From Hymenobacter gelipurpurascens (lineage in GTDB: Bacteria > Bacteroidota > Bacteroidia > Cytophagales > Hymenobacteraceae): 64,000 nt of DNA. This document shows positions 30,270 to 60,040 of the stretch, piece after piece. The notes under the pieces are model-generated. The model ran no database searches and was not told the DNA's origin. It saw only the letters and a list, made by a program, of their open reading frames with translations. The translations under genes were made by a program, and so were the position numbers. Each line of letters starts with the position of its first letter. Positions within the stretch are counted from its first letter, which is position 1. Location of the stretch: positions 434,001-498,000 of the forward strand of contig NZ_FYEW01000001.1 of the NCBI RefSeq assembly GCF_900187375.1, in the 5' to 3' direction.

Positions 30270-30299
30270 ATCGGAACCGTTTTCGGTAACGTTTTCGGT
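30270..30299 (+). promoter_or_regulatory. LacI-type operator, glucuronate arm
   Basis: A 30-base site containing ATCGGAACCGTTTTCGGTAA and then CGTTTTCGGT, an imperfect palindrome. It matches the site at 59938-59967 at 25 of 30 positions. It lies in the divergent region between the LacI-type gene and uxuA. A TATTTGAAGGTAATCTAC block at 30215-30232 upstream is likewise shared with the other site. Confidence 0.75.
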
Positions 30300-30364
30300 A
30301 TTTTTATTTAGAAATCAGCGCGTTAGGAGGGTTTTTGAAATGCATGTGGATTCAATTCTTGCTC

Positions 30365-30372
30365 TATATTCG
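30365..30372 (+). promoter_or_regulatory. -7 promoter box of the uxuA operon
   Basis: TATATTCG, preceded by TTGCTC, differs from the Bacteroidota TAnnTTTG box at one position. It starts 65 bases after the operator end, exactly as in the xylB region. No clear -33 box at normal spacing was seen. Confidence 0.5.
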
Positions 30373-30477
30373 AAAGCGAGTTCTCACTCACCCCTACTAG
30401 ACCACAGGCAGTGGCCTACCACACCGGAAGGAAGAGGAGGCACGTAATGATTGGATTTTTCTAACAAAAATACTGGC

Positions 30478-31725
30478 ATGCAGCATACCATGCGTTGGTT
30501 CGGGCCTCAAGACCCGGTTTCTTTAATGACTCTGCGGCAAGCCGGGTGCACCGGCGTCGTTACGGCGCTGCACCAGTTGCCCGTAGGCCAGGTGTGGCCC
30601 GTGGAAGAAATCCGAGCTCGACAGCAACTGATTGAAGCCGGTAACGACCAGTATTCGCCGTTGCAGTGGGCGGTAGTAGAAAGCCTGCCAGTGCACGAGG
30701 CTATCAAGAAAGGGCTGCCCGCACGCACTCAGTATATAGAGGCCTATAAGGAGTCGTTACGCAATCTGGCGGCCTGCGGCATCCGCACGGTGTGCTACAA
30801 CTTCATGCCCATGCTGGATTGGTCGCGCACCAGTCTTAACTACGAGATGCCTGACGGTTCGCGGGCTCTGCGCTTTGTGTGGCAGGACTTCGCTGTGTTC
30901 GACTTATACATTCTCAAGCGCCCCGGCGCCGAAAACGATTACGAGCCCGAAGTTGCCGCCGCCGCCCAGGAGCAGCTGGCCGCTATGTCGCCCGAAGACG
31001 TAGCCACGCTGACCAACACGGTGCTGTTAGGCCTGCCCGGCTCTGAGGAAGCCTTTGAGCTGGCGGGCTTCCAAAGCTTACTAGATGAATACGCCAACAT
31101 CTCGCCCGATACGCTGCGCGAAAACCTGTACTTCTTCCTGCGGGAGGTGGGCCCGGTGGCTGAGGAAGTAGGCATCGGCCTCTGCATTCACCCCGATGAC
31201 CCACCGTTTCCGCTGCTTGGCCTGCCCCGCGTGGTGAGCACCGAAGCGGACCTGCTAGGCCTGATACAGGCCTACGACTCGCCCGCCAATGGCATCACCT
31301 TCTGCACTGGCTCCCTGGGCGTGCGGCCCGATAACGATCTGCCCGGTATCGTGCGGCGCCTGGGGCACCGCATTCATTTCGTGCACCTGCGCGCCACCAA
31401 GCGCGAGGACAACCCCCGCAACTTCCATGAGGCTGACCACCTCACCGGCGACGTGGACATGTACGCCGTGGTGCGTGAGTTGGTGCGCGAGGAAATCCGC
31501 CGCAGTCAGGAGAACAGCATCAGTTTCCAGCTGCCCATGCGCCCCGACCACGGCCACCAGATGCTCGACGACCTCGAAAAACGCACCTACCCCGGCTACT
31601 CGGCCATCGGGCGACTGCGGGGCTTGGCCGAGTTGCGCGGCTTGGAACTGGGTATCCGCCGCAGCCTTGAGGAGCAGGCTTCCGCTGATCTGACGACCTC
31701 CACTGCTCACCATTTCGCTCAATAA
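30478..31725 (+). CDS. uxuA: Mannonate dehydratase
   Basis: Converts D-mannonate to 2-keto-3-deoxygluconate in glucuronate catabolism. 415 residues from ATG 30478 (MQHTMRWFGP), the usual family beginning; a TTG at 30451 with AGGAGG before it would add nine residues. Recognised: RQAGCTGVVTALHQLP, ACGIRTVCYNFMPMLDWSRT, GLCIHPDDPPFPLLGLPRVV, FCTGSLGVR and FVHLRATKREDNPRNFHE, with metal-binding His/Cys/Asp residues, and the final MRPDHGHQM. It is first in the xylan operon and feeds the glucuronate released by the GH67 enzymes. Confidence 0.95.
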   Translation: MQHTMRWFGPQDPVSLMTLRQAGCTGVVTALHQLPVGQVWPVEEIRARQQLIEAGNDQYSPLQWAVVESLPVHEAIKKGLPARTQYIEAYKESLRNLAACGIRTVCYNFMPMLDWSRTSLNYEMPDGSRALRFVWQDFAVFDLYILKRPGAENDYEPEVAAAAQEQLAAMSPEDVATLTNTVLLGLPGSEEAFELAGFQSLLDEYANISPDTLRENLYFFLREVGPVAEEVGIGLCIHPDDPPFPLLGLPRVVSTEADLLGLIQAYDSPANGITFCTGSLGVRPDNDLPGIVRRLGHRIHFVHLRATKREDNPRNFHEADHLTGDVDMYAVVRELVREEIRRSQENSISFQLPMRPDHGHQMLDDLEKRTYPGYSAIGRLRGLAELRGLELGIRRSLEEQASADLTTSTAHHFAQ

Positions 31726-31740
31726 GTTCTTCTGCTTCGC

Positions 31741-33846
31741 ATGTCTTTCCGCTCGCTATTCTTCTTCGTACTGTTCTGCACCCTGGCGCATCGCGGCCTT
31801 GCTGATGATGGCTACCGGCTGTGGCTGAAGTACGACCAGGTGCGCGATGCCGGGCAGCGGAAAGCGTATCAGAAACAGGCTAATTTCATTGCTGTGCCTA
31901 GTGGTTCGCCTGTACTCCAGGCCGCCGGGCGGGAGCTGCAGAACGGCCTACAGGGCCTGCTAGGCCAGTCGGTGCCGATGGTGGGAGAGGGGAAAGGCAG
32001 TAAAGGAGGCATTGTGCTGTCGGTAGCAGCCAACCCCGAGCTAGGCCAGGAAGGCTACCGCGTGAGCACGCAAGGCGGCAATGTAGTTGTGATGGGCGCT
32101 ACAGATAAAGGTGTGCTGTACGGCGCATTTGCACTGCTGCGCCACCTGCAAACCGGACAGTCCATTTCAGCTGTCAATCTCAACAGCAAGCCGCGAATTG
32201 AGTACCGCTTTCTCAACCACTGGGACAACCCCAATGGTACCGTGGAGCGTGGCTACGCGGGCTCCTCTATCTGGAAGTGGCAGGAACTGCCCGAAGTGAT
32301 TGATCCGCGCTACCAGGATTATGCCCGCGCCAATGCCTCTATCGGTATTAATGGCGTGGTATTCAACAACGTAAACGCCAGTGCCCGCTTTCTGACAGCT
32401 GAATATCTGCAGAAGGTAGCGGCCCTAGCCAACGTGATGCGACCTTATGGGATTAGGGTGTATATGTCGGTGCTGTGGGCGGCACCCAAGGTGATTGGAG
32501 GGCTGCAAACCTCTGATCCCTTGGACCCCCAGGTGCGCCGCTGGTGGACCGCTAAAACCGACGAGATATACAAAGTCATTCCAGACTTCGGCGGCTTTCT
32601 GGTGAAGGCCAACTCCGAAGGCGAGCCCGGCCCCCAGGACTACGGCCGCAACCACGCCGACGGCGCCAATATGTTGGCCGAAGCCCTAGGCCAGCACGAT
32701 GGTATTGTGATATGGCGCGCCTTCGTGTACAAAGCCAACTCCAACGGCGACCGGTTCAAGGAGGCCTTCCAGGAGTTTCAGCCCCTAGATGGCAAGTTTG
32801 CCAAGAAGGTGCTAGTGCAGGTGAAAAACGGCCCCATCGACTTTCAGGCCCGCGAGCCATTTCACCCGCTGTTCGGGGCCATGCCCAAAACGCCATTGGT
32901 GCTAGAAGTGCAGCTCACGCAGGAGTACCTTGGGTTTGCTACGCACCTCGTGTACCTGGCGCCGCTTATAAAAGAGTGCCTGGAGGCTGACACCTACGCA
33001 AAAGGTCCCGGTTCAACAGTGGCTAAAGTAGTAGATGGCACAATCGATAATCATGCTATCAGCGGCATTGCAGGCGTGGCCAACATCGGCTCCGACCGCA
33101 ACTGGACCGGCCACCCCGTAAGCCAGGCCAACTGGTACTCCTACGGCCGTCTGGCTTGGGACCATACGCTCACCTCGCAGGCGCTGGCCGAAGAGTGGAC
33201 GAAAATGACGCTGACTCAGGAGCCAAAAGCAGTAAGCACTATCACAGACCTGCTCACAAAATCGCGCGACATTTATGTGCGCTATACCACGCCGCTAGGC
33301 CTGCACCACATCATGGGCCAGAGCATCCACTACGGCCCCGAGCCCTGGCTGGAAAAAAGCGCCCGTCCCGACTGGACCTCCATCTACTACCACAAAGCCG
33401 ACGCCGTAGGTCTGGGCTTTAACCGAACCGCTACTGGTAGCAACGCGCTAGGCCTGTATGCGCCGCAAGTACAGAAGCAGTGGGGTGACCCCGCCACTTG
33501 CCCGCCCAATTACCTCCTGTGGTTCCACCACGTGCCTTGGACCCAAACGCTCAGCACCGGCCAAACCCTCTGGAACGAACTGACGACCCGCTACTACACC
33601 GGCGCCGACTCGGTGCTCTGGATGCAGCAGCAATGGGCCCAGGTGCAGCCCGCCCTAGATGCTGAGCTGCACGCCGATGTAGCCTCCCGCCTACGCATTC
33701 AGTACCGCGAGGCCCTGTGGTGGCGCGATGCCTGTGTGCTCTACTTCCAGCAGTACGCCAAGCAGCCGCTGCCGCCCACGCTCACGCCGCCCTCACGCCC
33801 GCTGGCTGAAATCAAACAGCTGGTCGATATCTACCAGCTCCGCTAA
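31741..33846 (+). CDS. GH67 alpha-glucuronidase, first copy
   Basis: Releases (4-O-methyl)glucuronic acid from the non-reducing end of xylo-oligosaccharides. 701 residues, signal peptide at residues 1-21 (LFFFVLFCTLAHRGLA). The three known GH67 residues are found by alignment to the family: acid Glu293 in NSEGEPGPQD, Asp367 in GPIDFQ, and Glu395 in TQEYLG, close to 292/365/393 of the Cellvibrio enzyme. Starts 15 bases after uxuA. The exported protein probably works in the periplasm after SusC import. A second GH67 gene at 54122 has the same residues. Confidence 0.95.
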   Translation: MSFRSLFFFVLFCTLAHRGLADDGYRLWLKYDQVRDAGQRKAYQKQANFIAVPSGSPVLQAAGRELQNGLQGLLGQSVPMVGEGKGSKGGIVLSVAANPELGQEGYRVSTQGGNVVVMGATDKGVLYGAFALLRHLQTGQSISAVNLNSKPRIEYRFLNHWDNPNGTVERGYAGSSIWKWQELPEVIDPRYQDYARANASIGINGVVFNNVNASARFLTAEYLQKVAALANVMRPYGIRVYMSVLWAAPKVIGGLQTSDPLDPQVRRWWTAKTDEIYKVIPDFGGFLVKANSEGEPGPQDYGRNHADGANMLAEALGQHDGIVIWRAFVYKANSNGDRFKEAFQEFQPLDGKFAKKVLVQVKNGPIDFQAREPFHPLFGAMPKTPLVLEVQLTQEYLGFATHLVYLAPLIKECLEADTYAKGPGSTVAKVVDGTIDNHAISGIAGVANIGSDRNWTGHPVSQANWYSYGRLAWDHTLTSQALAEEWTKMTLTQEPKAVSTITDLLTKSRDIYVRYTTPLGLHHIMGQSIHYGPEPWLEKSARPDWTSIYYHKADAVGLGFNRTATGSNALGLYAPQVQKQWGDPATCPPNYLLWFHHVPWTQTLSTGQTLWNELTTRYYTGADSVLWMQQQWAQVQPALDAELHADVASRLRIQYREALWWRDACVLYFQQYAKQPLPPTLTPPSRPLAEIKQLVDIYQLR

Positions 33847-33882
33847 TCCCTGTCAACGCTGTTGACGACAATCTCTTTTCGA

Positions 33883-34689
33883 ATGGAAAACCTGAACCCC
33901 GTTCTCTCTACTCTTACGCACGCCAGCGGCCAGCCAAACCCGTTTTCGCTGGAAGGTCGCCTAGCCCTTATTACCGGCGGCGGCACCGGCATCGGCCTGG
34001 AAATAGCGCGTTGCATGGCAGTGGCTGGCGCAACCGTCATTATTACGGGCCGCCGCGAGAGTGTGCTGCAGGAGGCAGTGGCAGAACTCGGCCCCTCGGC
34101 CCATTACCTCACCAACGATGTCTGCGACCTGGCTTCACTTGATGGCCTGGTAGATCATATTGAAGCTACCTATGGCGAACTGGATATTGTGGTGAACAAC
34201 GCCGGCATAAACATGAAAAAGCCTGCGCTGGAAGTAACCGATGAAGATTTCAGCCGCATCATTCACACCAACCTCAACTCAGTGTTTGCACTCACCCGGG
34301 CCTGTGCCAAACGCATGGTGCCCCGCAAGCGCGGTGTAATTCTGATGATTTCCTCCATGGCCGCCTACTACGGCATTGACCGGGTAGTGGCCTACGCGGC
34401 TTCCAAATCGGCAGTGGAGGGCATGGTGAAGGTGCTGGCCTCCGAATTCTCCAAAGACAATGTGCGCGTGAATGCCATTGCTCCCGGCTTCATCGAAACA
34501 GAGATGAGCCGCACCGCCATGAACTCCGACCCCGACCGCCGCGACCGGGCCATGCGCCGCACGCCCATGGGCAAGTTCGGCCAGCCCGAGGATATTGGCC
34601 ACGCCGCCGTGTTCCTCGCTTCTGATGCGGCGCGCTACATCACCGGGGCTTCCCTACCCGTGGATGGCGGCAACTCCATCGGCTTCTAA
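33883..34689 (+). CDS. SDR oxidoreductase, probable fructuronate reductase
   Basis: A 268-residue classical SDR: TGGGTGIGLEIARCM (NAD(P) binding, about residue 28), NNAGINMKKPALEVTDEDF, catalytic Ser in MISSMAAYYG, and Tyr/Lys in YAASKSAVEGMVKVLASEF; C-terminus ITGASLPVDGGNSIGF. Cytoplasmic. ATG 33883 is chosen over TTG 33862. It lies between the GH67 and susC genes. The glucuronate path needs D-fructuronate reductase between uronate isomerase and UxuA. No UxuB-type gene is here, and SDR-type enzymes do this step in other Bacteroidota, so that role is inferred. Gluconate 5-dehydrogenase- or KduD-like activity is the alternative. Confidence 0.8.
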   Translation: MENLNPVLSTLTHASGQPNPFSLEGRLALITGGGTGIGLEIARCMAVAGATVIITGRRESVLQEAVAELGPSAHYLTNDVCDLASLDGLVDHIEATYGELDIVVNNAGINMKKPALEVTDEDFSRIIHTNLNSVFALTRACAKRMVPRKRGVILMISSMAAYYGIDRVVAYAASKSAVEGMVKVLASEFSKDNVRVNAIAPGFIETEMSRTAMNSDPDRRDRAMRRTPMGKFGQPEDIGHAAVFLASDAARYITGASLPVDGGNSIGF

Positions 34690-34764
34690 TACTTCTCGCT
34701 TTACACATCCACTTCCCACACCGGATACTTGCAGTTAATCCCACACTTAAACATCCCACATTCC

Positions 34765-37700
34765 ATGCACTTCCCTTTACGCAAGACGGCTTTGGGCCTA
34801 AGCTGGCCGCTACTGGCCGCAACCGGGCTCTCCATGGCTGGCGGTCTGCTGGCCCCCTCTGCGGTGCAGGCCCAGGCCACCGCACAATCAGTTTCCGGCC
34901 GCGTTGTTGGCACGGATGGTGCCGGGCTGCCCGGCGTAAACGTGGTCGTGAAAGGCTCTACCACGGGTACTGTAACAAATGACGAAGGTCAGTTTACAGT
35001 GGCGGCTCCGGCTGGCTCTACCCTGGTGTTCTCATTCATAGGGTTTACTCCAAAGGAAGTTGCCGTTGGCAACCAGTCAACGCTTAATGTAACGTTGGGT
35101 GAAGATGCCAAGGCCTTGGATGAGGTAGTGGTAGTAGGCTACGGTGTACAGCGAGCAGAAGCGGTGACTGGTTCAGTTGCTTCTATCGGGGGGGAGGCCT
35201 TGCGTGAAGTACCGTCTGCTAACATCTCACAGGCCTTGCAAGGCCGTTTGCCAGGCGTGCAGTTTTCGCAATCATCCTCCCAGCCAGGCGCCAGCACGCA
35301 AATCCGGATACGCGGCACCCGTTCACTTTCTGCCAGTAATGATCCATTGGTAGTTTTGGACGGTATTCCTTTCCCCGGATCAATTGGTGATATTAACCCC
35401 AACGACATTCAGAGTGTAGACATACTGAAAGATGCGTCTGCAACAGCTATTTACGGGTCGCGTGGAGCGAATGGAGTTGTCCTGATAACCACTAAAAAGG
35501 GTAAAGCAGGTCAAAAACCGCAAATAACGTATGATGGGTTTGTTGGCGCAAAAACACTTTTCGCCAAATACCCCATGATGGACGGGCCTGAATTTGTTGC
35601 GCTACGCAAAGCGGCGGGTATATATACCAATGCTTTAGATGAAGCCGATGATGTGAATACCGATTGGCAGGACTTGTTGTACAGAACCGGTATCCAATCA
35701 AACCACAACTTAGGTGTTTCCGGCGGTACTGAAAACGGGCGTTATAATTTCAACGCGGGTTACTATCAGGAAGAAGGCGTAATTCCTACCCAGCAGTACA
35801 CCCGTTATTCTATTCGCGGTACCCTTGACCAAGGAGTTGGTAAGTATATCCGATTAGGGTTTACCACAAACAACACCTACAGCTTGTCCGAGGGGTCTAA
35901 TGTAGGCATATATGGTATCCTGAATTCATCACCAATTGCTAATCCTTACAATCCGGATGGTACTCTGAAAAGGACCATCAGAATGCCCTTGGATGAGCAG
36001 TGGGTGTATACCAGAAAGATTGTAGAAGACTTGAGCGACCGGTGGTTAAGTGAAACCAAAGCGCTGGCCACGTACAACACCATATTCGCGGAAGCTAAAA
36101 TTCCTGGTGTTGAGGGCTTAAAGTATCGAGTTAACCTGGGCGTAAACTATCGGCAGAGCCAAGGTGGTTCTTACACAGGGCAGGGTATTACCGCTGTTAA
36201 CCCCACTACACCATCAACGGCATCTGTTAGCAATCAGGTTACTACAGACTGGACAGTTGAAAACATATTGTCCTATGATCGCACGTTTGCTGAGAAGCAT
36301 AACATAAATGCTATAGCCCTATACTCTGCCTCCCAAAACAATTTCAACCAGTCTCGGATTGCAGCCCGGGATATCCCTTCAGACGCCTTCCAGTACTATA
36401 ACCTGGGTTTGGCCGCAGGCGAAATCACCGTATCTCCTGGTGACCAACAGTACCGGAAATATGGTCTGCTGTCCTACATGGGACGCGTAATGTACTCCTA
36501 TGATGACCGGTATTTGTTATCCGCTACTGTTCGCTCAGATGGTGCCTCAGTACTGGCCGAAGGACATAAGTGGAATACGTACCCTGCTGTGTCGGTAGGC
36601 TGGAATATAGCCAAAGAGTCCTTTATGCAGGATATCACGGCTATAAACATGCTGAAACTGCGAGCTGGCTATGGTATAACGTCAAACCAGTCTATTGCCC
36701 CATATGCTACGCTAGGCCGCTTAACTACCCGGCCTTACAACTTCGGCCCTACCAATTACCAGACGGGTCTATTCGTAAGCCAATTGCCAAACCCTCTCTT
36801 GGGTTGGGAGTACTCCAAAACTTATAACTACGGGTTGGACTTCGCTGTCCTGAAAAACCGTCTTTCTGGTACTATTGAGTATTACGTCACCAACACCGAG
36901 GATATTCTGCTTGGTTTGCCATTGCCTCCTACTTCTGGCGTGGATAGCTATACTGCCAATATTGGAGCTACTCAAAACAAAGGGGTAGAGCTTTCCTTAA
37001 ATGGAGTGATATTGGAAAATGTCAACGGCTGGACTTGGGAGGCTGGGTTCAACCTATATGCTAACCGTAACAAGATTACGTCACTGGCCGGTGAACAGCA
37101 GAGAGATGAAGGAAACTGGTGGTTTGTTGGCAAGCCTATCAACGTAATATATGATTACGAAAAAATAGGCTTGTGGCAAGAAGAAGACCCCTACAGGAAT
37201 ATTTTTGAGCCAGGTGGAAATGCGGGTATGATCAAGGTGAAATACACCGGCGATTATAATGCAGATGGTACCCCTACCAGAGCCATTGGCCCACAAGACC
37301 GTCAGATTCTGGACGTAAACCCGAACTTTCTTGGCGGTTTCAATACCCGGGTGGCCTATAAAGGATTTGATTTAAGTGCCGTTGGTGCCTTCCAAAACGG
37401 CGGTATCGTTAACAGCACCCTGTATGGCTCATCGGGCTATCTTAACCTGATGAACGGTCGTCGGGGTAATGTGAAAGTAGATTACTGGACTCCCGAGAAT
37501 ACGGACGCCAAGTACCCCAAACCAGGTGGTCTCACGAGCGGCGACAACCCAAAGTATGGCAGCACGCTGGGGTATTTTGATGCCTCTTACCTGAAGGTGC
37601 GTACCATTTCGCTGGGCTATAACTTTGAGAGCAACGCGTGGCTGAAAAACGCCGGAGTTAGCCGACTACGGCTGTACGCGACAGCCCAGAACCCCTTTGT

Positions 37701-37863: not shown

Positions 37864-37874
37864 GAAAGAGAACA

Positions 37875-41860: not shown

Positions 41861-41886
41861 TCTGCCGTCTGCTACGCTTGCTTTCT

Positions 41887-48320: not shown

Positions 48321-50252
<1,932 letters not shown>

Positions 50253-50296
50253 GCCACTGTTGATTAATGATGAATAAAAGGCCGTCCTGTTTGAAC

Positions 50297-50441
50297 GGTC
50301 ATGCTGAGCATGTGGCGCATCAAGCCAGGGTGCGCAGCCTCAGTCGAAGCATCTCTACCTCTGACTAATTACTGGCCTAGGTCTCTAGCAACGAAGCAGT
50401 AGAGATGTTTCGACTGCGCGGACGCCAGATCAAGCATGACG
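50297..50441. repeat. Palindromic intergenic repeat, family A copy 3 (enlarged)
   Basis: The outer arms GGTCATGCT and AGCATGACG and the inner AGTCGAAGCATCTCTACC and GTAGAGATGTTTCGACT match the family. The left arm contains about 30 extra bases, including GTGGCGCATCAAGCC, and the right arm has GCGGACGCCAGATCAAGC instead of the usual CGCTC. It is therefore a variant of the family. Confidence 0.8.
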
Positions 50442-50485
50442 TTCCTATAAATCCCTGAATATCTAAACGCCCATTTCTCCCACCG

Positions 50486-52975
50486 ATGAGGAACCTTCAC
50501 TGGCCAGTCCAGGCCTGTTTGCTGCTGCTTTGCTGGGTAACTGGCCTAGGGGGTGTGGCGGCTAAGCCGAAGCCTACCCCCCTGCGGCTGTGGTATGATA
50601 AGCCGGCCGCTAATTGGAATGAGGCCTTGCCGCTCGGCAATGGTCGCCTGGGGGCTATGGTGTTTGGTGCGCCGCAGCGCGAACGGCTCCAGCTGAATGA
50701 GGAAACCATCTGGGCCGGCGGCCCCAACAACAACGTGAAGGCCGATGCGCTGCCCGTGGTGCGGCAGCTCCGGGAGCAGCTCCTGGCAGGGCAGCTAGTA
50801 GAAGCGCAGGCCCTGGCGCAAGCCAAAATGCAGCCCGCCGGCAACAGCGGCATGCCCTACCAGATGGCCTCAAACGTGTACCTCGACTTTCCGGGCCACG
50901 ACAACGCCACCCACTACCAGCGCGACCTGGACATCAGTCGGGCCGTGGCCTCGGTGAGCTACGAGGTGGGCGGCGTGATGTACCGCCGCGACATGTTCAG
51001 CTCCCTGCCCGACCAGGTAGTGGTGGTGCAGCTCACGGCCAGCAAGCCGGGCCAGATCAGCTGCCAGCTGAGCGAGGAAAGCCTGATGCAGTACACCTGC
51101 CACGTCGAAAAAGACCAGCTGGTGCTGGATGGGCGCGGCAGTGAGCACGAAGGCCAGGAAGGCAAAATTCGCTTTCAGACGCGCATACAGACAGTGGCCG
51201 ATGGCGGCACCGTGCAAACCACCGACGCGGGCATCAGAATTGAGCGCGCCAACAGCGCCACGCTGTATATTTCCATCGGCACCAATTTCAACAACTACCA
51301 CGACGTAAGCGGCGACCCAAACGCGCGGGCCACGGCCTACCTCGCCGCTGCTGTGCGTAAGCCCTACAAGCAGGCCCTGGCCGACCACGTAGTGGCCTAT
51401 CAGCGCTACTTCAACCGCGTGACGCTGAACCTAGGCGTGACGCCCGCCGCGCAGCTGCCTACCCCCGAACGAATTGCTGGCTTTGCGCAGGGCCACGACC
51501 CGGCGCTTGCGGCCTTGTATTTTCAGTACGGCCGTTACCTGCTTATCAGCTCGTCGCAGCCGGGTGGGCAGCCGGCCAACCTGCAAGGAATCTGGAACGA
51601 CCAGCTCAGGGGCCCCTGGGACAGCAAGTACACGGTGAACATCAACACCGAAATGAACTACTGGCCGGCTGAGGTCACCAACCTGACGGAGCTGCACGAG
51701 CCCCTGTTCAGCATGATAAAGGACCTGAGTGTGACCGGGCAGCAAAGTGCCCGACAGATGTACGGCGCCCGCGGCTGGGCCCTGCACCACAACACCGATA
51801 TCTGGCGCATCACGGGGCAAGTCGACCCGCCGCAGTACGGCCTCTGGCCCATGGGCGGCGTCTGGCTCTCGCAGCACCTCTGGGACCATTACCAGTTCAC
51901 TGGCGACCTGGCTTTTCTGCGCGAATATTACCCCGTGCTTAAGGGCGCGGCAACTTACTTAGTCGATGCTTTGCAGGAAGAGCCCACCCGCCACTGGCTG
52001 GTAGTAGCGCCCTCGGTATCGCCTGAAAACAACTACCAACTTCAGGGCAAGCAGATTGCGTTGGTGGCCGGCACTACCATGGACAACCAGCTGGTGTTCG
52101 ACCTGTTCTCCAAAACTATCCGGGCCGCCGAGCTGCTCCAGCTTGATCAACCCTTTGCTGATAGCCTGCGCCGACTGCGTGAGCGGCTGCCCCCCATGCA
52201 AATTGGCCAGTATGGGCAGGTGCAGGAGTGGCTGCAGGACGTAGACAACCCCCAGGATCAGCACCGCCACATTTCCCACCTCTATGGGCTATATCCCAGC
52301 GGGCAGATTTCGCCCTACCGCACGCCCGCGCTGTTCGAGGCCGCCCGCACCACCCTCACCCAGCGCGGCGACGCATCTACGGGCTGGTCGATGGGGTGGA
52401 AGGTAAACTTCTGGGCGCGCATGCAAGATGGCAACCATGCCTACAAATTACTTACGGAGCAGTTGCGGCTGCGCTCCGGCGCGGGCGGCAACTCGGGCGA
52501 GGGGGGAGGTACCTACCCCAACCTGCTCGATGCGCACCCTCCGTTCCAAATTGACGGCAACTTCGGCTGCACCGCCGGTCTGGCCGAGCTGTTCGTGCAG
52601 AGCCACGACGGCACGCTCGACCTGCTGCCCGCCCTGCCCGACGCCTGGCCCAGGGGCGAAGTAACTGGCCTAGTGGCTCGCGGCGGCTACGTGGTAGACC
52701 TGGCCTGGGACAAGGGCCAGATTACCCGCGTGCGCATCACCTCGAAGCTAGGGGGCAACTGCCGCGTGCGGGTGCATAGCCCCGTAGCCACTTCGGGCGG
52801 GCTAAAACTGCGGGAAGCGCAGGGCGAAAACCCCAACCCATTCTACCAGACGCTGCCGGTTAAGCCTCCGCTGATTTCTAGTAAAGCCACGCCTGGGCAG
52901 CCCACGCTGGTGCCGTCTTTCGTGTATGATTTTCCCACCGAAGCAGGCAAGTCCTATTCCCTAAAAGCCCGCTAA
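50486..52975 (+). CDS. GH95 alpha-L-fucosidase/galactosidase
   Basis: 829 residues, signal peptide (residues about 8-27). N-terminal GH95 beta domain with WYDKPAANWNEALPLGNGRL, GAMVFGAPQRERLQLNEETI and WAGGPNNN. The (alpha/alpha)6 barrel carries NINTEMNYWPAE at about 385 (Asn-rich catalytic site), TDIWRITG, and the acid in QIDGNFGCTAGLAEL. GH95 enzymes remove terminal alpha-1,2-L-fucose or L-galactose. In a xylan locus, L-galactose on glucuronoarabinoxylan side chains is the more likely target. It follows a palindromic repeat and precedes another GH43 by 51 bases. Confidence 0.93.
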   Translation: MRNLHWPVQACLLLLCWVTGLGGVAAKPKPTPLRLWYDKPAANWNEALPLGNGRLGAMVFGAPQRERLQLNEETIWAGGPNNNVKADALPVVRQLREQLLAGQLVEAQALAQAKMQPAGNSGMPYQMASNVYLDFPGHDNATHYQRDLDISRAVASVSYEVGGVMYRRDMFSSLPDQVVVVQLTASKPGQISCQLSEESLMQYTCHVEKDQLVLDGRGSEHEGQEGKIRFQTRIQTVADGGTVQTTDAGIRIERANSATLYISIGTNFNNYHDVSGDPNARATAYLAAAVRKPYKQALADHVVAYQRYFNRVTLNLGVTPAAQLPTPERIAGFAQGHDPALAALYFQYGRYLLISSSQPGGQPANLQGIWNDQLRGPWDSKYTVNINTEMNYWPAEVTNLTELHEPLFSMIKDLSVTGQQSARQMYGARGWALHHNTDIWRITGQVDPPQYGLWPMGGVWLSQHLWDHYQFTGDLAFLREYYPVLKGAATYLVDALQEEPTRHWLVVAPSVSPENNYQLQGKQIALVAGTTMDNQLVFDLFSKTIRAAELLQLDQPFADSLRRLRERLPPMQIGQYGQVQEWLQDVDNPQDQHRHISHLYGLYPSGQISPYRTPALFEAARTTLTQRGDASTGWSMGWKVNFWARMQDGNHAYKLLTEQLRLRSGAGGNSGEGGGTYPNLLDAHPPFQIDGNFGCTAGLAELFVQSHDGTLDLLPALPDAWPRGEVTGLVARGGYVVDLAWDKGQITRVRITSKLGGNCRVRVHSPVATSGGLKLREAQGENPNPFYQTLPVKPPLISSKATPGQPTLVPSFVYDFPTEAGKSYSLKAR

Positions 52976-53026
52976 CCCTCAGAGTCTTATCGGCTCGTCT
53001 CTCCCTGGTCCTTCCATCCCAGTCCT

Positions 53027-53983
53027 ATGAAAAAATCCTTGCTCGCCGCTCTGCTGACTATCGGTGTTTACCTGCCTTCGCAGGCGCAGAATCCGATTAT
53101 CAAAGACGTATTTACGGCCGATCCGGCGCCGCTGGTGTACCGCGACACGCTGTTTTTGTATACCAGCCACGACACGGCCTCGGTGCAGGAAACTAACTAC
53201 AAAATGCCCGACTGGCGCATCTACTCCACCACCGACATGGTGCACTGGAAGGACTACGGTAAGCGTCTCTCGCCCCGGACCTTTGCTTGGGCCACCGGCG
53301 ACGCCTACGCGGCGCAGTGCGTGTACCACAACGGCAAGTTCTACTGGTTTGTATCCACGTTCCATAAGAAGGACGACAACAGCCAAGGCGGTGCGGCCAT
53401 TGGTGTGGCCGTATCGGATAGGCCTACGGGGCCGTTTAAGGATGCTATTGGCAAGGCGCTCATCGTAAATGAGATGACCAAAGACAAGCCCCACGCCTGG
53501 GACGACATCGACCCTACGGTTTTCGTCGACGACGACAAGCAGGTGTACATGTACTGGGGCAACTTAAGCTGCCGGTGGGTGAAGCTCAAGGATAACATGA
53601 CCGAGCTGGCTGGCCCCATCAACGTGATTACGCCCAAAAACTACATCGAAGGCCCCTGGGTGTACAAACGCAAAAAGCTGTATTACCTCGTGTACGCCAG
53701 TGCCGGCACCAAGCCCGAAATGATTGAGTACTGCACGGCTCCCAGCGCCACCGGCCCCTGGACCTACCGCGGCATCATCCAGGAAAATGTGCCCAACAGC
53801 TTTACCACCCACCCCGGCATCATCGACTACAAGGGTAAGAGCTACTTCCTCTACCACAATGGTTCCTTGCCGACCGGTGGCAGCTACCGCCGCTCCATTT
53901 GCGTGGATGAGCTGCACTATAACAAGGATGGCTCCATCCAGAAAATAGTGCAGACAACTGCGGGAGTTGCGTCGGTGAAGTAA
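53027..53983 (+). CDS. GH43 single-domain glycosidase
   Basis: 318 residues, the shortest of the four GH43 proteins, with signal peptide (SLLAALLTIGVYLPSQAQ) and only the propeller. GH43 acids: Asp in VFTADPAPLVY, Asp in DDIDPTVFVDDDKQVYMYWG, and Glu in IEGPWVYKRKKLYYLVY. The pattern TSHDTASVQETNYKMPDWRI near the start is typical of arabinofuranosidase-like subgroup members. Probably acts in the periplasm on arabinose side groups of oligosaccharides. A 138-base gap with two CTAGGCC-type motifs follows. Confidence 0.92.
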   Translation: MKKSLLAALLTIGVYLPSQAQNPIIKDVFTADPAPLVYRDTLFLYTSHDTASVQETNYKMPDWRIYSTTDMVHWKDYGKRLSPRTFAWATGDAYAAQCVYHNGKFYWFVSTFHKKDDNSQGGAAIGVAVSDRPTGPFKDAIGKALIVNEMTKDKPHAWDDIDPTVFVDDDKQVYMYWGNLSCRWVKLKDNMTELAGPINVITPKNYIEGPWVYKRKKLYYLVYASAGTKPEMIEYCTAPSATGPWTYRGIIQENVPNSFTTHPGIIDYKGKSYFLYHNGSLPTGGSYRRSICVDELHYNKDGSIQKIVQTTAGVASVK

Positions 53984-54121
53984 CGCGTGGAGCGTACGTG
54001 CTAGGCCAGTTCCGTGGCTAACGGCCGTGAGAGCAGCCAGTGGCCTAGACCCGCCGGATTCAGCTGCGGAGGTAAAATCGGCCTGCAGAGCTGGTAGAAA
54101 TTAAACGACGAAAGCATCCAG

Positions 54122-56188
54122 ATGAAACGAATTATTTTCAGTGTTCTACTACTGAGCGCGAGCCTTTTGGCCAAGGCCGAGGATGGCCACCAGCTATGGT
54201 TACGCTCACATCAGGCTGCGCCGGTTAAGGTGGTGACGACTGCCAAAAACTCGGCAGTTTTGGCAACGGCCCGGCAGGAATTGCAGCAAGGCTGGCAAGG
54301 CAATCCAGGCGCTACCGTAACGCTGACGCTTAGAAAGGATAAAGCCATTAAATACGACGGTTACCGCATCAGTCCCACTGGCGTGCAGGCCAGTACGGAG
54401 GCAGGGCTGCTATACGGTGTGTTTGAGCTGTTGCGGCGCCAGCAAACGGGCCAAACTGCGCAAGCTGACCTTTCCAACCCGTCGTACGAGTACCGCCTGC
54501 TCAACCACTGGGATAACCCCGATGGCTCCGTGGAGCGCGGCTACGCGGGGCAGTCCATCTTCTGGCGCAAAGACAGCTCGTTCGTAACCACCAACCGCGA
54601 CAAAGTCCGGTGGCGGGAGTACGCCCGCGCCAACGCTTCGGTGGGTATCAACGGCGCTGTTATCAATAATGTGAATGCCTCGCCGAAAATCTTGTCGGCG
54701 GAGTATCTGGCCCGCGTGAAAGCCGTGGCTGATGAGCTGCGGCCGTATGGTGTGAAAACCTACTTGGCAGTGAAGTTTTCGTCGCCAGCCTTGTTGGGTG
54801 GCCTAAAGACCTCCGACCCGCTGGACCCCGCCGTGGTGAAATGGTGGCAAAGCAAGGCCAAGGAGATTTACCGGCAGATTCCGGATTTCGGCGGCTTCTT
54901 GGTGAAAGCCAGCAGTGAAGGGCAGCCCGGCCCGCAGGACTACGGCCGCACCCACGCCGATGGCGCCAACATGCTAGCCGATGCCCTCAAGCCCTACCAC
55001 GGCCTGGTGATGTGGCGGGCCTTCGTGTACAGCCCCACGGATAAGGACCGCGCCAAACAGGCCTACAATGAGTTTGTGCCGCTCGATGGCAAATTTCGCG
55101 ACAACGTGATTGTGCAGGTGAAAAATGGGCCCGTCGATTTTCAGCCCCGTGAGCCATTCAGCCCGCTGTTCGGGGCCATGAAAAAGACCTCCGTGATGCC
55201 GGAGTTTCAGATAACGCAGGAGTACCTGGGCCACTCCACCGACCTCGCTTTCCTCTCGACCATGTGGGAAGAGTGCCTGCAAAGCGACACCTACCAGGCC
55301 GGCCCTGGCAGCACGGTGGCCCGCTGCACCGATGGCAGCGTGTACCCGCAAAAGCACACGGCCATGGCCGGCGTTGCCAACACTGGCCTAGACCGGAACT
55401 GGACGGGCCATGATTTCGCCCAGGCCAACTGGTACGCCTTTGGTCGGCTGGCCTGGAATAACCAGATGAAAAGCGCCCAGATTGCCGATGAGTGGCTGAA
55501 ACTGACGTTTGCCGGAGCTACTGGCTCAGCGGCCAGCGCCACCACAGACTCTAACTGGAATACCAACTTTCTAGCGCCGGTAAAGCAGATGATGCTGGAT
55601 AGCCGGGAGGCCGTCTTGAACTATTCCATGCCCCTAGGCCTGCACCACATTATGTCGGCTACGCGCGGGCATTATGGCCCCGGCCCGTGGTGGGCGCCAC
55701 CCAAAATGCGCGCCGACTGGACACCCGGCTACTACCACCAGGCCAGTGAGAACGGGGTGGGCTTCGACCGCACTAAAGCGGGGAGTGATGCGGTGAGCCA
55801 GTACCACGAGCCGCTGGCCTCGCAGCTAAATAACCCCAATACCTGCCCCGATGAGTACCTGCTATGGTTCAATCACTTGCCTTGGGATTTCAAAATGAAA
55901 TCGGGCAATACGTTGTGGAATGAGCTGTGCGCGCACTACGATAAAGGGGTGCAGCAGGCGCGGCAGTTTCAGCGTATCTGGGACCAGACCCAGCCCTACG
56001 TAGACGCCGAGCGGTTTGCAGCGGTACAGAACAAGCTCCGGAGCCAGAGTGGCAACGCCGTGCAGTGGAAAGATGCCTGTTTGCTGTATTTCCAACAGTT
56101 CAGCCATATGCCCATTCCTGCCACCGTCGAGCCCCCCATGCACACGCTTGAGGCAGTTATTGCCGATGATATGCGGCCCCAACGGTAA
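54122..56188 (+). CDS. GH67 alpha-glucuronidase, second copy
   Basis: 688 residues, signal peptide (IIFSVLLLSASLLAKA). Catalytic residues by family match: Glu266 in SSEGQPGPQD, Asp339 in GPVDFQPREPFSPLFGA, and Glu367 in TQEYLGHSTD. It is a paralogue of the GH67 at 31741, sharing YRLLNHWDNPDGSVERGYAG-type and GLHHIMS-type motifs throughout, but with an N-terminal part about 27 residues shorter before the active site. Two GH67 enzymes in one locus suggests two decoration patterns or two compartments. 271 bases without any recognised feature follow it. Confidence 0.95.
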   Translation: MKRIIFSVLLLSASLLAKAEDGHQLWLRSHQAAPVKVVTTAKNSAVLATARQELQQGWQGNPGATVTLTLRKDKAIKYDGYRISPTGVQASTEAGLLYGVFELLRRQQTGQTAQADLSNPSYEYRLLNHWDNPDGSVERGYAGQSIFWRKDSSFVTTNRDKVRWREYARANASVGINGAVINNVNASPKILSAEYLARVKAVADELRPYGVKTYLAVKFSSPALLGGLKTSDPLDPAVVKWWQSKAKEIYRQIPDFGGFLVKASSEGQPGPQDYGRTHADGANMLADALKPYHGLVMWRAFVYSPTDKDRAKQAYNEFVPLDGKFRDNVIVQVKNGPVDFQPREPFSPLFGAMKKTSVMPEFQITQEYLGHSTDLAFLSTMWEECLQSDTYQAGPGSTVARCTDGSVYPQKHTAMAGVANTGLDRNWTGHDFAQANWYAFGRLAWNNQMKSAQIADEWLKLTFAGATGSAASATTDSNWNTNFLAPVKQMMLDSREAVLNYSMPLGLHHIMSATRGHYGPGPWWAPPKMRADWTPGYYHQASENGVGFDRTKAGSDAVSQYHEPLASQLNNPNTCPDEYLLWFNHLPWDFKMKSGNTLWNELCAHYDKGVQQARQFQRIWDQTQPYVDAERFAAVQNKLRSQSGNAVQWKDACLLYFQQFSHMPIPATVEPPMHTLEAVIADDMRPQR

Positions 56189-56459
56189 CCTGGCGTCCTT
56201 GGGCCGGCAAGCAGGGTAGGAGCAGACTCACACGTCTCAGGTTAGCTGCAATACAAAAGCGACCCATACTCGAGCACATCCTGGCCTAGTAGTACCACCT
56301 TGAAGCGTACTCCGTCCCGCGACCCAGCACAACGCTAGTAGCCCGATAGCAGATTGTAGGGCATGATGCTTGAAAGAAGCACTGCTAGGCCAGTTGCATC
56401 TCCTTCCTAAACGAGTCCCACTCACAACATCAAACTTTAGTAGTACAACCTGTAGTCAT

Positions 56460-58448
56460 ATGACTCATTCTCCTCTCACTGGCTCTATCTCATCTTGGTC
56501 CTCAGCCTTGGGCCGCCGCAGCCTAGTGCTGGCTGCACTCAGCAGCTTTCTACTCACTCCCGCCCACACTCACGCACAAGTACGCCTGCCGAAGCTGGTG
56601 AGCGACGGCATGGTGTTGCAGCGCGACACGAAAGTGAACATCTGGGGCTGGGCCAAGCCCGGCGAGAAAATCGCCCTGAAGTTCAACGGCAAAAGCTACC
56701 AGACGGCCGCCGGTACCGACGGCAAATGGCAAATCGGCTTGCCTTCCCTGAAAGCCGGCGGTCCGTACCAGTTGGATATTACGGCCAGCAACCACATCAC
56801 CCTGAAGGATGTGTATGTGGGCGACGTGTGGCTCTGCTCGGGGCAGTCGAACATGGAGACGCCCATGAGCCGGGTGCGCGACAAGTACCCGCAGGAAGTA
56901 GCCCAGGCCAACAACCCCCGCATCCGGCAGTTCACGGTGCCCCTGACCTACGCCTTCACGGGGCCCAAGGCCGATCTGACGGGCGGCAACTGGGTACCTG
57001 CCGATGCACAGAATATCCTGCAGTTTTCGGCCGTAGCCTACTTCTTCGCCAAGGAAATCAGCGCCAAGTACCAGGTGCCGGTAGGCATTATCAAGGATGC
57101 CGTGGGTGGCTCGCCCGCGGAGGCCTGGCTGAGCGCCGATGCCCTGAAGAAGTTTCCTGCCTACGAGGAGCAAGGCGCCAAATACCGCGACAGTGCCCTG
57201 GTGGCCGGAATCAGGCAGCGCGAAGGTGCTGCCGTGGCCGGTTGGTATAAGCGCCTGCACCAAACCGACCAGGGCGAACAGCCGGGCCAACCGAAGTGGT
57301 CGGCCGCTACATACGATGCCACCGGCTGGGCCAGCATGAACGTGCCGGGCTACTGGGCTAACCAAACCCCGCTAGGCCAGGTGAATGGCGTTGTATGGTT
57401 TCGGAAGGAGATAGACGTGCCCACCAACATGGTAGGCCAGTCGGGCCGCCTGGAGCTGGGCACCTTGATTGACGCTGACTCTACCTACATCAACGGCCAA
57501 CTGGTGGGCACTACCGGCTACCAGTATCCGCCCCGCAAGTACGATTTCAAGCCCGGCGTGCTGAAGGCCGGCAAAAACGTGATAGTGGTGCGTCTCATCA
57601 GCAACGGGGGCCGCGGGGGCTTTACTATGGATAAAACCTACCAGCTTAAGGCAGGCGGGCAAACCATTGACTTGCGCGGCCCTTGGCAGTATAAGCTGGG
57701 CGCTACTATGTCGCCTACACCGGGTACCACCACCTTCCAGTACCAGCCCGGCGGACTGTATAATGGCATGATTGCGCCCGTGCTGCCCTACGCCGTAAAA
57801 GGCGTGCTCTGGTACCAGGGCGAGTCGAACGCCGGCCACCCGGAGGATTACCAGGCCCTGCTTTCCTCCCTGATTACCGACTGGCGGCAGCAGCTGCAGC
57901 GCCCCAATCTGCCATTCGTATACGCGCAGTTGCCCAACTTTATGGCCGTAAGGAAGGAGCCCAGCGAGAGTGGATGGGCCGCCCTGCGTGATGCGCAGCG
58001 CCGCACGCTGACTGTCCCCAATACGGGTATGGCAGTGCTCCTCGATGTGGGCGAGTGGAACGATATTCATCCCTTGGATAAGCAGACGGTAGGCCACCGC
58101 CTCGCGCTGGCAGCACAATCAGTGGCCTACGGAGAGAAAAAGATCGTGGCGATGGGGCCCCTGTACCAGTCGATGCAGGTGAATGGTAACAAAGTCACCC
58201 TTTCTTTTACCAACACCGGTAGCGGGCTGGTAGCGAAGGGCGGCGACAAGTTGCAGTACTTCGCCATTGCTGGCGCCGACAAGAAGTACGTGTGGGCCAA
58301 CGCCAAAATTGAAGGCAACAAGGTGGTCGTCTGGAGCGACCAGGTGCCGCAGCCCGTATCCGTGCGCTACGCCTGGGCCGACAACCCAGAGGGCACTAAG
58401 CTCTACAACAAGGAAGGATTACCAGCCTCCACCTTCCAAACCAACTAA
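56460..58448 (+). CDS. SGNH sialate/xylan O-acetylesterase
   Basis: 662 residues from ATG 56460; signal peptide (SLVLAALSSFLLTPAHTHAQ). SGNH-hydrolase with the nucleophile Ser130 in CSGQSNMETP, the Gly/Asn oxyanion elements (GGSPAEAWLS, WYQGESNAGH), and Asp535-x-x-His in NDIHPLD. An inserted beta-sandwich (about 270-390, VWFRKEIDVP, NGQLVGTTGYQYPPRKYDF) resembles the GH2 sugar-binding fold of sialate O-acetylesterases. In this setting acetyl-xylan deacetylation is the natural role. The frame from 56370 adds 30 residues and is not preferred. Confidence 0.92.
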   Translation: MTHSPLTGSISSWSSALGRRSLVLAALSSFLLTPAHTHAQVRLPKLVSDGMVLQRDTKVNIWGWAKPGEKIALKFNGKSYQTAAGTDGKWQIGLPSLKAGGPYQLDITASNHITLKDVYVGDVWLCSGQSNMETPMSRVRDKYPQEVAQANNPRIRQFTVPLTYAFTGPKADLTGGNWVPADAQNILQFSAVAYFFAKEISAKYQVPVGIIKDAVGGSPAEAWLSADALKKFPAYEEQGAKYRDSALVAGIRQREGAAVAGWYKRLHQTDQGEQPGQPKWSAATYDATGWASMNVPGYWANQTPLGQVNGVVWFRKEIDVPTNMVGQSGRLELGTLIDADSTYINGQLVGTTGYQYPPRKYDFKPGVLKAGKNVIVVRLISNGGRGGFTMDKTYQLKAGGQTIDLRGPWQYKLGATMSPTPGTTTFQYQPGGLYNGMIAPVLPYAVKGVLWYQGESNAGHPEDYQALLSSLITDWRQQLQRPNLPFVYAQLPNFMAVRKEPSESGWAALRDAQRRTLTVPNTGMAVLLDVGEWNDIHPLDKQTVGHRLALAAQSVAYGEKKIVAMGPLYQSMQVNGNKVTLSFTNTGSGLVAKGGDKLQYFAIAGADKKYVWANAKIEGNKVVVWSDQVPQPVSVRYAWADNPEGTKLYNKEGLPASTFQTN

Positions 58449-58529
58449 GCTAGGCCAGTCTCATCTCCTTCATGCGTCCTTTTAGGGTGAAGAAGGAAAG
58501 AACCCACGCCCTTTGTAATCCCTAGATCT

Positions 58530-59669
58530 ATGAAAACAAGAAACATTCTGCTTACTAGTGCCTTGGCTGGGGTTGCTCTGGGGTTTGTGCAAAAGGCGCA
58601 GCCCACGTTGAAAGACACGTTTAAGAAGGATTTCTACGTGGGCGCGGCACTTAACTACCGCCAAACCAACGGCCAAGATGCCAAAGCCACGGCCCTCATT
58701 AAGCAGCAATTCAACACGATAAGTCCCGAGAACCTACTCAAGTGGGGGCCGGTGCACCCACAACCCACTACCTATAACTTCAAGCCCGCCGATGAGTACG
58801 TAGCCTTCGGGCAGCAGAACAAGATGTTCATCATTGGGCATACGCTCATGTGGCACCAACAAACGCCGAAGTGGGTGTTTGAGGATGAAGCCGGCAAACC
58901 GGTAAGCCGGGAGGTGCTGCTGAAGCGTCTGGAAGAACACATCAATACTGTAGTAGGGCGCTACAAAGGAAAGATTGGCGGTTGGGATGTGCTAAACGAA
59001 GCCATTGATGACCAGCAAGGGGACCTACGCAAAACCAAGTGGCTGGAAATTCTCGGCGAAGACTTTGCTGCCCAAGCCTTCGAGTATGCCCACAAAGCCG
59101 ACCCCAAAGCCGAACTCTACTACAACGACTACAGCCTATACCGCCCGGAAAAGCGGGAGGGGGTGATTAAGCTGGTGAAAGGCATACAGGCAAAAGGCAT
59201 CAAGGTAACGGCTATCGGGATGCAGGGACATTATGGGCTGAGACGGCCCAGTATTGAGCAGATTGAAGCAAGCATTGTGGCCTTTTCAAAACTGGGGGTG
59301 CATGTAAACTTTACCGAGTTGGATATTGATGTGCTGCCCAACCCCAGCCGCCGGCAGGGTGCTGATATCTCCGAAAACTACGCCGCCGCCACACAATACA
59401 ACCCGTACCAAGCAGGCCTGCCCGACTCGGTGCAGCTGCAACTATCCAAACGGTATGCTGACCTGTTCGCCCTGTTTCATAAACACCGCGACGTCATTGA
59501 CCGCATCACGCTATGGGGCGTTACAGATGCAGATTCCTGGCTGAATGACTGGCCTATTAGAGGGCGCACCAGCTACCCACTGCTGTTCGACCGTAACTAT
59601 GCGTCTAAGCCGGCCTTCCGGACGGTGGTGCAAGTAGCCCAGAAGAACAAGTGGTTGCGTCTGAAATAA
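58530..59669 (+). CDS. GH10 endo-1,4-beta-xylanase
   Basis: 379 residues; short signal-like N-terminus (NILLTSALAGVALGFVQ) without an evident cleavage motif or lipobox. GH10 TIM barrel: NTISPENLLKWGPVHPQP, GHTLMWHQQTPKWVF, acid/base Glu157 in WDVLNEAID, YYNDYSLYRPEKREG, and nucleophile Glu263 in FTELDIDVLP; RITLWGVTDADSWLNDWP near the end. It cuts the xylan backbone and is the only clear endo-xylanase here. No carbohydrate-binding module. It is last in the long operon; the next 506 bases are a control region. Confidence 0.95.
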   Translation: MKTRNILLTSALAGVALGFVQKAQPTLKDTFKKDFYVGAALNYRQTNGQDAKATALIKQQFNTISPENLLKWGPVHPQPTTYNFKPADEYVAFGQQNKMFIIGHTLMWHQQTPKWVFEDEAGKPVSREVLLKRLEEHINTVVGRYKGKIGGWDVLNEAIDDQQGDLRKTKWLEILGEDFAAQAFEYAHKADPKAELYYNDYSLYRPEKREGVIKLVKGIQAKGIKVTAIGMQGHYGLRRPSIEQIEASIVAFSKLGVHVNFTELDIDVLPNPSRRQGADISENYAAATQYNPYQAGLPDSVQLQLSKRYADLFALFHKHRDVIDRITLWGVTDADSWLNDWPIRGRTSYPLLFDRNYASKPAFRTVVQVAQKNKWLRLK

Positions 59670-59937
59670 GGCCGAACACGACTTCATGGGTCAGTTCTAA
59701 CGTAAGCCTTTGGGTATTCTCGCTTCAGCTCGCTAGGCCAGTAAGGCTTTGTGTACGCAGTGTCAGAGCACCCAATCAGCTGCAGACGGGAGAAATACAC
59801 TGGCCTAGAGGAACAAGTTGGGTTAAATAAATAGTATTATTAGATATGAAACGCGAGTCGCCATGAAGGAGGTTCGCGTTTTATGCGTTTGACTATTTGA
59901 AGATATTCTACGAAAATAAAATTGAGCTATGCTACCT

Positions 59938-59967
59938 ATCGAAACCGTTTCCGATAACGGTTTCGAT
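59938..59967 (+). promoter_or_regulatory. LacI-type operator, xylose arm
   Basis: A perfect 12-base inverted repeat: ATCGAAACCGTT, six bases, AACGGTTTCGAT. LacI-family sites are typically such palindromes. It matches the site at 30270 at 25 of 30 positions, and both are followed by a TTTTATTTAGA stretch. Confidence 0.8.
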
Positions 59968-60032
59968 AGTTTTATTTAGATTTTAGCGTTTTAAAGCCTT
60001 TTTTATCCGGCGTTCCGTAAAGTTTGTTGCTG

Positions 60033-60040
60033 TATATTCG
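60033..60040 (+). promoter_or_regulatory. -7 promoter box of xylB-xylA
   Basis: TATATTCG preceded by TTGCTG, the same box as at 30365, again 65 bases after its operator. It lies 136 bases before the xylB start codon. Confidence 0.5.

Follow-up and report, generated by a model that had tools for sequence, protein, structure and literature searches.

A zinc-ribbon LacI-type protein and a composite operator that may join the glucuronate and xylose genes of Hymenobacter into one regulon

The subject of this report is a glucuronoxylan utilisation locus of Hymenobacter gelipurpurascens, carried on a 64,000-nucleotide stretch of contig NZ_FYEW01000001.1 (positions 434,001 to 498,000; hereafter the window, in whose coordinates all positions are given). 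A minus-strand LacI-type gene is followed there by plus-strand genes that run from uxuA through to xylB-xylA, and two matching operator-promoter modules lie in front of uxuA (site 1) and in front of xylB (site 2). Each module consists of a 30-bp site with the make-up of two overlapping LacI operators and, a fixed distance behind it, a promoter box; both the site and the distance are retained in relatives. Our preferred reading, to which we give a probability of roughly six in ten, is that the LacI-type protein regulates both modules, with class-I-like activation from a fixed upstream distance. The elements on which the argument turns are the following.

28968 to 30146, minus strand: gene for the LacI-family regulator, 392 amino acids, with an N-terminal zinc ribbon (Pfam LacI and Peripla_BP_3; orthologues)
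30036 to 30137, minus strand: zinc ribbon, residues 4-37, with C4, C7, C27 and C30 (NCBIfam IS1_IS1595_Zn domain match)
29859 to 29996, minus strand: LacI helix-turn-helix, residues 51-96 (Pfam PF00356)
30219 to 30226, minus strand: TACCTTCA, probably the -7 box of the lacI promoter, within a block shared upstream of both sites (offset 43 from the site, by eye)
30270 to 30299, no strand: predicted composite operator 1, overlapping 18-bp LacI operators at 30270-30287 (distal) and 30282-30299 (promoter-proximal) (sequence comparison)
30365 to 30372, plus strand: -7 element TATATTCG of the uxuA promoter (pattern and spacing counts)
59938 to 59967, no strand: predicted composite operator 2, overlapping operators at 59938-59955 and 59950-59967 (sequence comparison)
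60033 to 60040, plus strand: -7 element TATATTCG of the xylB promoter (pattern and spacing counts)

Two matching modules

An earlier note on this DNA had drawn attention to the pair of modules, and most of its description holds. The two sites match at 25 of 30 positions when measured, the T-rich stretch behind both is TTTATTTAGA, and TATATTCG begins at 30365 and 60033, in each case exactly 65 bases past its site; the LacI-type gene at 28968-30146 does lie divergent from site 1. In the window TATATTCG occurs only these two times on the plus strand and not at all on the minus strand. The "12+12" palindrome described for site 2 is correct as far as it goes, but it extends further, to perfect 14-bp arms around a 6-bp middle. 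Counted over the 30-bp site, 13 of 15 positions pair at site 2 and 10 of 15 at site 1. With up to three mismatches allowed, the 32-mer of site 2 found no match in 100 shuffles.

The block said to be shared upstream is indeed common to both modules (TATTTGAAGGTAATCTAC at 30215-30232 versus TATTTGAAGATATTCTAC at 59894-59911, 16/18 by eye). It precedes site 1 by 37 bases and site 2 by 26, however, so that the two copies are out of register. The idea that it forms a third operator was rejected, since what it carries, in reverse orientation, is a -7-like box; at site 1 this is probably the -7-like box of the lacI promoter, TACCTTCA. The reverse box at 59894-59911, TATCTTCA, is perhaps a relic of a divergent lacI-xylB layout like that of four relatives (L039, L040, L045 and L081). 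No further LacI-like copy overlaps either the uxuA or the xylB promoter in the window.

The scan of the complete genome that had been proposed for the palindrome bears out the pairing: a merged pattern with up to three mismatches matches only the two window sites in 5.06 Mb, and the reversed control matches none. The same pattern was run over 149 genomes (this one included), of which 25, all of the same genus, gave a match, with a control of 0 in all; 13 of these 25 have two places 14-31 kb apart. A more general pattern, allowing up to two mismatches, matched 67 of the 101 genomes of the genus (control 4). Among the matches listed, most of its places adjoin a lacI gene or xylB by coordinates, and at least eight lie away from both (G012, G024 twice, G029, G032, G033, G072 and G085). 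A few places are without assignment, their genomes being absent from the lacI-homologue search.

The operator beside lacI and xylB in relatives

Orthologues of the regulator were taken from 54 of 62 loci, those with 72-95% identity and labelled Hymenobacter or Hymenobacteraceae; eight Clostridia relatives (L083-L090, 26-27% identity) were left out, as was one locus (L069) whose lacI gene lies at a contig edge without upstream sequence. The 30-bp site is present in all 53 readable lacI-adjacent Hymenobacter regions, 104-135 bases before the lacI start. Across the site from lacI lies uxuA in 49 of the 53, in most followed by GH67 and SDR genes, and xylB-xylA in the other four, the relatives with a divergent layout named above.

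On the xylB side, the best 30 xylB matches were read upstream. The 30-bp site stands there in 21, several of them perfect 15/15 palindromes; one has a single 18-bp operator and eight have none. The single operator (L128, a Hymenobacter region upstream of xylB near a contig edge) occurs naturally and looks as if a 12-bp unit had been lost. At the eight xylB loci without a site, an open frame of 442-498 codons precedes the gene on the same strand, the gap to xylB being 9-44 bp at five loci, 115 bp at one and 174 bp at two, whereas at site-bearing loci with such a frame the gap is at least 152 bp. These eight could be served by read-through from an upstream operon, less certainly at the three with gaps of 115 and 174 bp because gaps of 152-198 bp also occur at three loci that do have the site. 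At one place (G149:C2:4514057-4515588) the xylB matches are two overlapping pieces, which suggests a frameshift or an assembly error.

The claim that one regulon joins the glucuronate and xylose arms gains from this survey: both promoters carry the site in relatives, and the regulator gene has been found beside uxuA and beside xylB-xylA. That the regulator stands next to one arm or the other, each time with the same operator, provides our strongest evidence for a single regulon, which we regard as well supported at the level of sequence. At four distant loci with a ribbon-LacI gene the divergent genes are as follows: at L265 a SusC-like gene and, at a greater distance, an FAD oxidoreductase; at L266 Gfo/Idh/MocA genes and then uxuA; at L267 uxuA, an SDR-like gene (these two recognised by eye) and then an MFS gene; and at L268 an FAD oxidoreductase, an MFS gene and a SASA esterase. 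Glucuronate genes recur at such loci, though not always.

Architecture of the composite operator

The earlier note had treated the site as a single LacI palindrome, and in this it needs revision: the site consists instead of two overlapping 18-bp operators set 12 bp apart. The unit is ATCGnnAnCGnTnnCGAT, which we take to be PurR-like, and its two copies are centred at 9.5 and 21.5 of the 30-mer. A set of 88 unique sites shows CG at 6-bp intervals (positions 3-4, 9-10, 15-16, 21-22 and 27-28), and positions 9, 10, 21 and 22, the unit centres, are C, G, C and G in 83-87 of the 88 sites each.

The 12-bp offset is kept over a wide range of relatives. Besides the 53 Hymenobacter regions, all of them double, we read another 53 loci with a ribbon-LacI gene. 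All but two of these come from family f11 (51 loci), which one homologue labelled Runella suggests to be Spirosomataceae. The double site is present in 42 of the 53 (by rule), a single 18-bp unit in nine (six by rule, three by eye) and neither in two, which brings the composite operator to 95 regulator loci (53 Hymenobacter and 42 further). One genome outside the order (L264) has a double site with one mismatch, but no box at 64/65 bases. In some f11 genomes (L228, L230 and L254) there is a variant double operator of GGGAAnGTTCCC-like units, possibly a change in specificity.

The single operators are informative as to which unit matters. In eight of the nine a -7-like box lies 61-68 bases past the unit (some with two candidates), and in L128 at 66; because the distal register would place the box near 77, the unit kept in single variants appears to be the promoter-proximal one.

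Covariation offers a different view of the same site. Across the 30-bp dyad the outer half-sites covary (positions 5-26 and 6-25, z of 5.8 each; 2-29, z 3.3; 8-23, z 2.9), z values being inflated by the kinship of the sequences. Neither the outer-inner pairs inside each 18-bp unit, which serve as the internal control (z -1.5 to 1.5), nor the 12-bp direct repeats (largest z 1.9) showed any, the inner positions being so little variable that power is low. Taken by itself this pattern would suit a single LacI dimer placed at the middle of the 30-bp dyad, since covariation appeared only across it and the inner positions vary too little for much of a test. Such a dimer is disfavoured by the AAnCGnTT cores at 9.5 and 21.5 and by the nine loci with the 18-bp unit alone.

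A fixed distance to the promoter box

The published consensus of the Bacteroidota -7 element is TAnnTTTG (PMC7366714). TATATTCG agrees with it at five of the six specified bases and fits an ordinary Bacteroidota (sigma-ABfr) -7 promoter element. In relatives, TAnnTT[TC]G lies 94/95 bases from the start of the site, or 64/65 past its end, at 65 of 74 sites (50/53 on the lacI side, 15/21 on the xylB side); at the remaining nine a variant of TAnnTT can be seen by eye at 94/95, and a scripted check for TAnnTT finds it there in 74 of 74. The sequence in between has diverged. Calculated over the sites with the strict box at 95 (41/53 and 14/21), the median pairwise identity of the spacer is 0.43 on the lacI side and 0.51 on the xylB side; over its middle 40 positions it falls to 0.38 and 0.42, and between both sets to 0.375.

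When only representatives below 60% spacer identity are counted, TAnnTT stands at 64/65 in 25 of 25, 10 of 10 and, in family f11, 12 of 24, the best other two-position window holding 3, 1 and 5, respectively. With single operators included, a looser TAnnTT[TCA] in f11 peaks at 65 (20/51, against a mean of 0.8 per position). The two f11 loci without a site (L221 and L247) were excluded from this offset profile, and these two plus the nine single-operator loci from the representative-spacing and covariation counts. Lesser peaks in the f11 profile lie 53 bases away from lacI (8/51) and 35 towards it (15/51). In the direction of lacI, TAnnTT[TC] has its own preferred offset of 42/43 from the site in 29 of 53 loci, corresponding to TACCTTCA; the two preferred distances are some two helical turns apart.

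The box has little company further upstream. Within a gap of 18-22 bp, the spacing that we take to be usual for the -33 element, TTTG precedes it at 5 of 53 and 0 of 21 sites, and in the window TTTG occurs only at gaps of 27 and 6 from the box. The -33 element could not be identified in Flavobacterium johnsoniae either, according to the account in PMC7366714.

The 65-base distance had originally been taken to point to activation or upstream control. The second of these is supported by the exact spacing through diverged spacers; activation is only the most likely form that it might take. Since the box distance is kept across spacers that have diverged, action on both promoters would be position-dependent, and a fixed upstream distance of this kind, with a presumed helical phasing, is what a class-I-like activator calls for. 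Moreover, because the operator edge lies 65 bp from the -7 box, no further LacI-like copy overlaps the promoters and the -33 TTTG is nearly absent, activation seems likelier than blocking.

The regulator and its zinc ribbon

The protein is of the LacI/GalR type, with matches to PF00356 at 50.1 bits (cut-off 27) and to PF13377 at 115.6 bits (cut-off 26.5). Ahead of the helix-turn-helix it carries an IS1-type zinc ribbon, which the earlier note had missed and which is kept in homologues beyond Hymenobacter. The IS1/IS1595-type model NF050000 matches residues 4-36 and scores 31.9 bits on the whole protein and 36.8 bits on residues 1-49 (cut-off 28); the Pfam model Zn_ribbon_InsA stays below its gathering score of 26.1, at 18.7 and 23.1 bits. 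In 120 of the 283 matches to residues 1-100, the set in which cysteines were counted, C27 and C30 are present in 120/120 and C4 and C7 in 112/120, with eight gaps. Two ribbon-LacI proteins (P0032 and P0097) are recorded under the plant Tanacetum cinerariifolium, probably through bacterial contamination of the assembly.

Of 390 genomes of the order, 80 encode the ribbon together with the LacI helix-turn-helix. At the level of the phylum 14 of 395 genomes match, and the ribbon falls within the match in only six of these 14. Among 49 Protein Data Bank (PDB) sequences at E 1e-20, no best-matching stretch starts before residue 45. The titles and abstracts of the open-access literature, which leave most subscription papers outside and are therefore weak evidence of novelty, gave no description of a ribbon-LacI fusion. 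The fusion is a candidate new regulator architecture and, in our opinion, the most interesting part of the finding.

It is tempting to make the ribbon the sole cause of the double operator, but this was not upheld: 3 of 26 upstream regions of ribbon-less regulators (L157, L163 and L278) show 12-bp doubles by eye. An exclusive link is also weakened by the single operators that occur with ribbon proteins. The 26 regions combine a set of nine loci minus L164 with 20 from the listed matches, two being common; ribbon-less status was read from the extent of the match, and the operator scan was heuristic, with no candidate in 14 of the 20 regions of the second set. Possible roles of the ribbon are to stabilise dimers where sites overlap, to contribute further base contacts or to make contact with the polymerase.

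Gene content of the locus

The remaining features of the locus are these.

30451 to 31725, plus strand: open reading frame of uxuA, mannonate dehydratase (Pfam 412.6 bits; TIGR00695 531.4 bits, cut-off 199.55)
31741 to 59669, plus strand: glucuronoxylan utilisation genes between both modules (Pfam)
59898 to 59905, minus strand: a -7-like box in reverse, TATCTTCA, within the operator 2 copy of the block common to both upstream regions (by eye)
60177 to 61699, plus strand: xylB, xylulokinase-like FGGY kinase, start by eye (FGGY Pfam)
61677 to 63008, plus strand: xylA, xylose isomerase (TIGR02630 672.5 bits, cut-off 533.25)

The likely start of uxuA is the ATG at 30478 or 30490 (by eye). Between the modules Pfam recognises GH67, SDR, SusC/SusD-like, several GH43, GH97, GH8, esterase, GH95, a second GH67, SASA esterase and GH10 genes; the two GH67 alpha-glucuronidase genes within the one locus lie at 31741-33846 and 54122-56188. 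No divergent gene was recognised at the reverse box. For the kinase, XylB is the best model, but at 319.5 bits, scored on the longer open reading frame 60071-61699, it stays below its cut-off of 380.25. The xylB and xylA genes overlap by 23 bases (61677-61699), which suggests translational coupling.

Proposed mechanism and alternatives

We propose that the divergent LacI-type protein (28968-30146) binds the 30-bp composite operator, whose two ATCGnnAnCGnTnnCGAT units at a 12-bp offset share the inner half-site. From there it would act on the uxuA and xylB promoters over the 65 bp between operator edge and -7 box, the centre of the proximal operator standing some 85 bp before the transcript start if the usual distance from -7 to start applies. 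With a sugar ligand present (xylose, glucuronate or an oligomer), class-I-like activation would raise the glucuronate, xylan-degrading and xylose genes together. A bolder version is tentative at best: that a transposase-type ribbon fusion has given rise to a distinct class of LacI activators, in which the ribbon lets two dimers share a half-site on the 30-bp operator or docks on RNA polymerase, one exact distance to the -7 element being required.

Several points weigh against activation by this protein. Most LacI-family proteins are repressors, usually of sugar genes, and a strict distance could equally serve a repressor that holds polymerase by contact. The near-absence of a -33 TTTG fits activator-dependent promoters without being proof of them, and the other 12 of the 24 f11 representatives have no TAnnTT at 64/65. 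The differing divergent genes at the four distant loci also indicate that this class of regulator is not tied to xylan everywhere. A repressor reading would keep the same regulon and sites, with the protein holding polymerase from upstream or bridging the operators 29.7 kb apart until sugar releases it; the habit of the family speaks for it, as does an operator between divergent promoters, the arrangement of autoregulated LacI systems. We consider it unlikely, though not negligible, in view of an operator edge 65 bp from the -7 box with no second LacI-like copy near the box, and of a 64/65-bp distance kept through diverged spacers, an exactness that promoter blocking does not need.

The identity of the regulator and the reality of the regulon can be doubted as well. 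Five matches to the protein at E <= 1e-60 in this genome, among the matches listed, provide candidates for a different LacI paralogue that reads the sites, with the ribbon-LacI gene beside one of them by chance. This is improbable when all 53 readable Hymenobacter loci have the 30-bp site in front of the ribbon-LacI gene, 51/53 further ribbon-LacI loci have a double or single operator there (three of the nine singles by eye), and lacI occurs next to one arm or the other. We give still less credence to mere duplication of one promoter region with no common regulator. The xylB upstream region does keep a reverse -7-like box resembling that of lacI, as if it had once faced lacI, and in four relatives lacI and xylB are indeed divergent neighbours; yet such a rearrangement fails to explain retention, for the spacers have diverged (to 0.375 between sets over the middle 40 positions) while site and spacing were kept. 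Control of both modules by the ribbon-LacI protein, with activation as its likelier mode, is the reading that we carry into the comparison below.

Relation to known systems

Polysaccharide loci of the Bacteroidota are best known for control by SusR and hybrid two-component systems (SusR/HTCS) and by extracytoplasmic function (ECF) sigma factors. A LacI-type regulator that unites the catabolism of backbone and side-chain sugars with an activator-like geometry would, if confirmed, represent a different wiring for the phylum, and the 65-bp rule would give a direct route to the targets of the regulator in relatives. Precedents for the geometry are CcpA, which activates from distant upstream sites, and CRP at class I promoters. 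In common with these, the regulator here would bind ahead of the promoter on one fixed face of the helix; it differs in working with another sigma factor system and promoter consensus, and activation is only probable here. The ribbon resembles the N-terminal domain of IS1/IS1595 transposases (InsA-type) in its CxxC...GxxRGxQRYxCKxC pattern and in an NCBIfam match above cut-off; unlike in the transposases, it is fused to a LacI-family regulator, and the Pfam InsA model remains under its cut-off.

With the local sugar regulators of the LacI/GalR family the protein shares a LacI helix-turn-helix and sugar-binding domain, 18-bp units with a central CG and AA/TT flanks, and a gene beside its targets. 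Its N-terminal zinc ribbon, conserved double operator and fixed 64/65 bp to the -7 box set it apart. In the compilation of PMC4052901, the operators of 1251 out of 1303 regulators are even palindromes of 16-22 nt, and 1173 of these have a central CG. The same study (Ravcheev et al. 2014) describes, in front of 110 operons, LacI-family sites that overlap at a spacing of about 13 bp, for example those of GntR at E. coli gntKU, and judges them hard to reconcile with structural data. The operators described there resemble the present ones in that two sites overlap inside the base-contact zone; here, in contrast, the offset is 12 bp, it is conserved over a whole group of regulators with natural single variants, and covariation is seen only between both outer half-sites. 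A composite operator with natural single variants makes the puzzle of 2014 directly testable, and a class of ribbon-LacI activators, if real, would be a natural solution for overlapping LacI operators that are otherwise unexplained.

The nearest comparison within the phylum is Bacteroides, for which PMC3878776 describes UxuR, a LacI-type regulator of glucuronate genes, and XylR, an NrtR-family regulator of xylose genes. Both sugar pathways are under control there as here, but by separate regulators of different families, where in Hymenobacter one LacI-type regulon appears to cover both.

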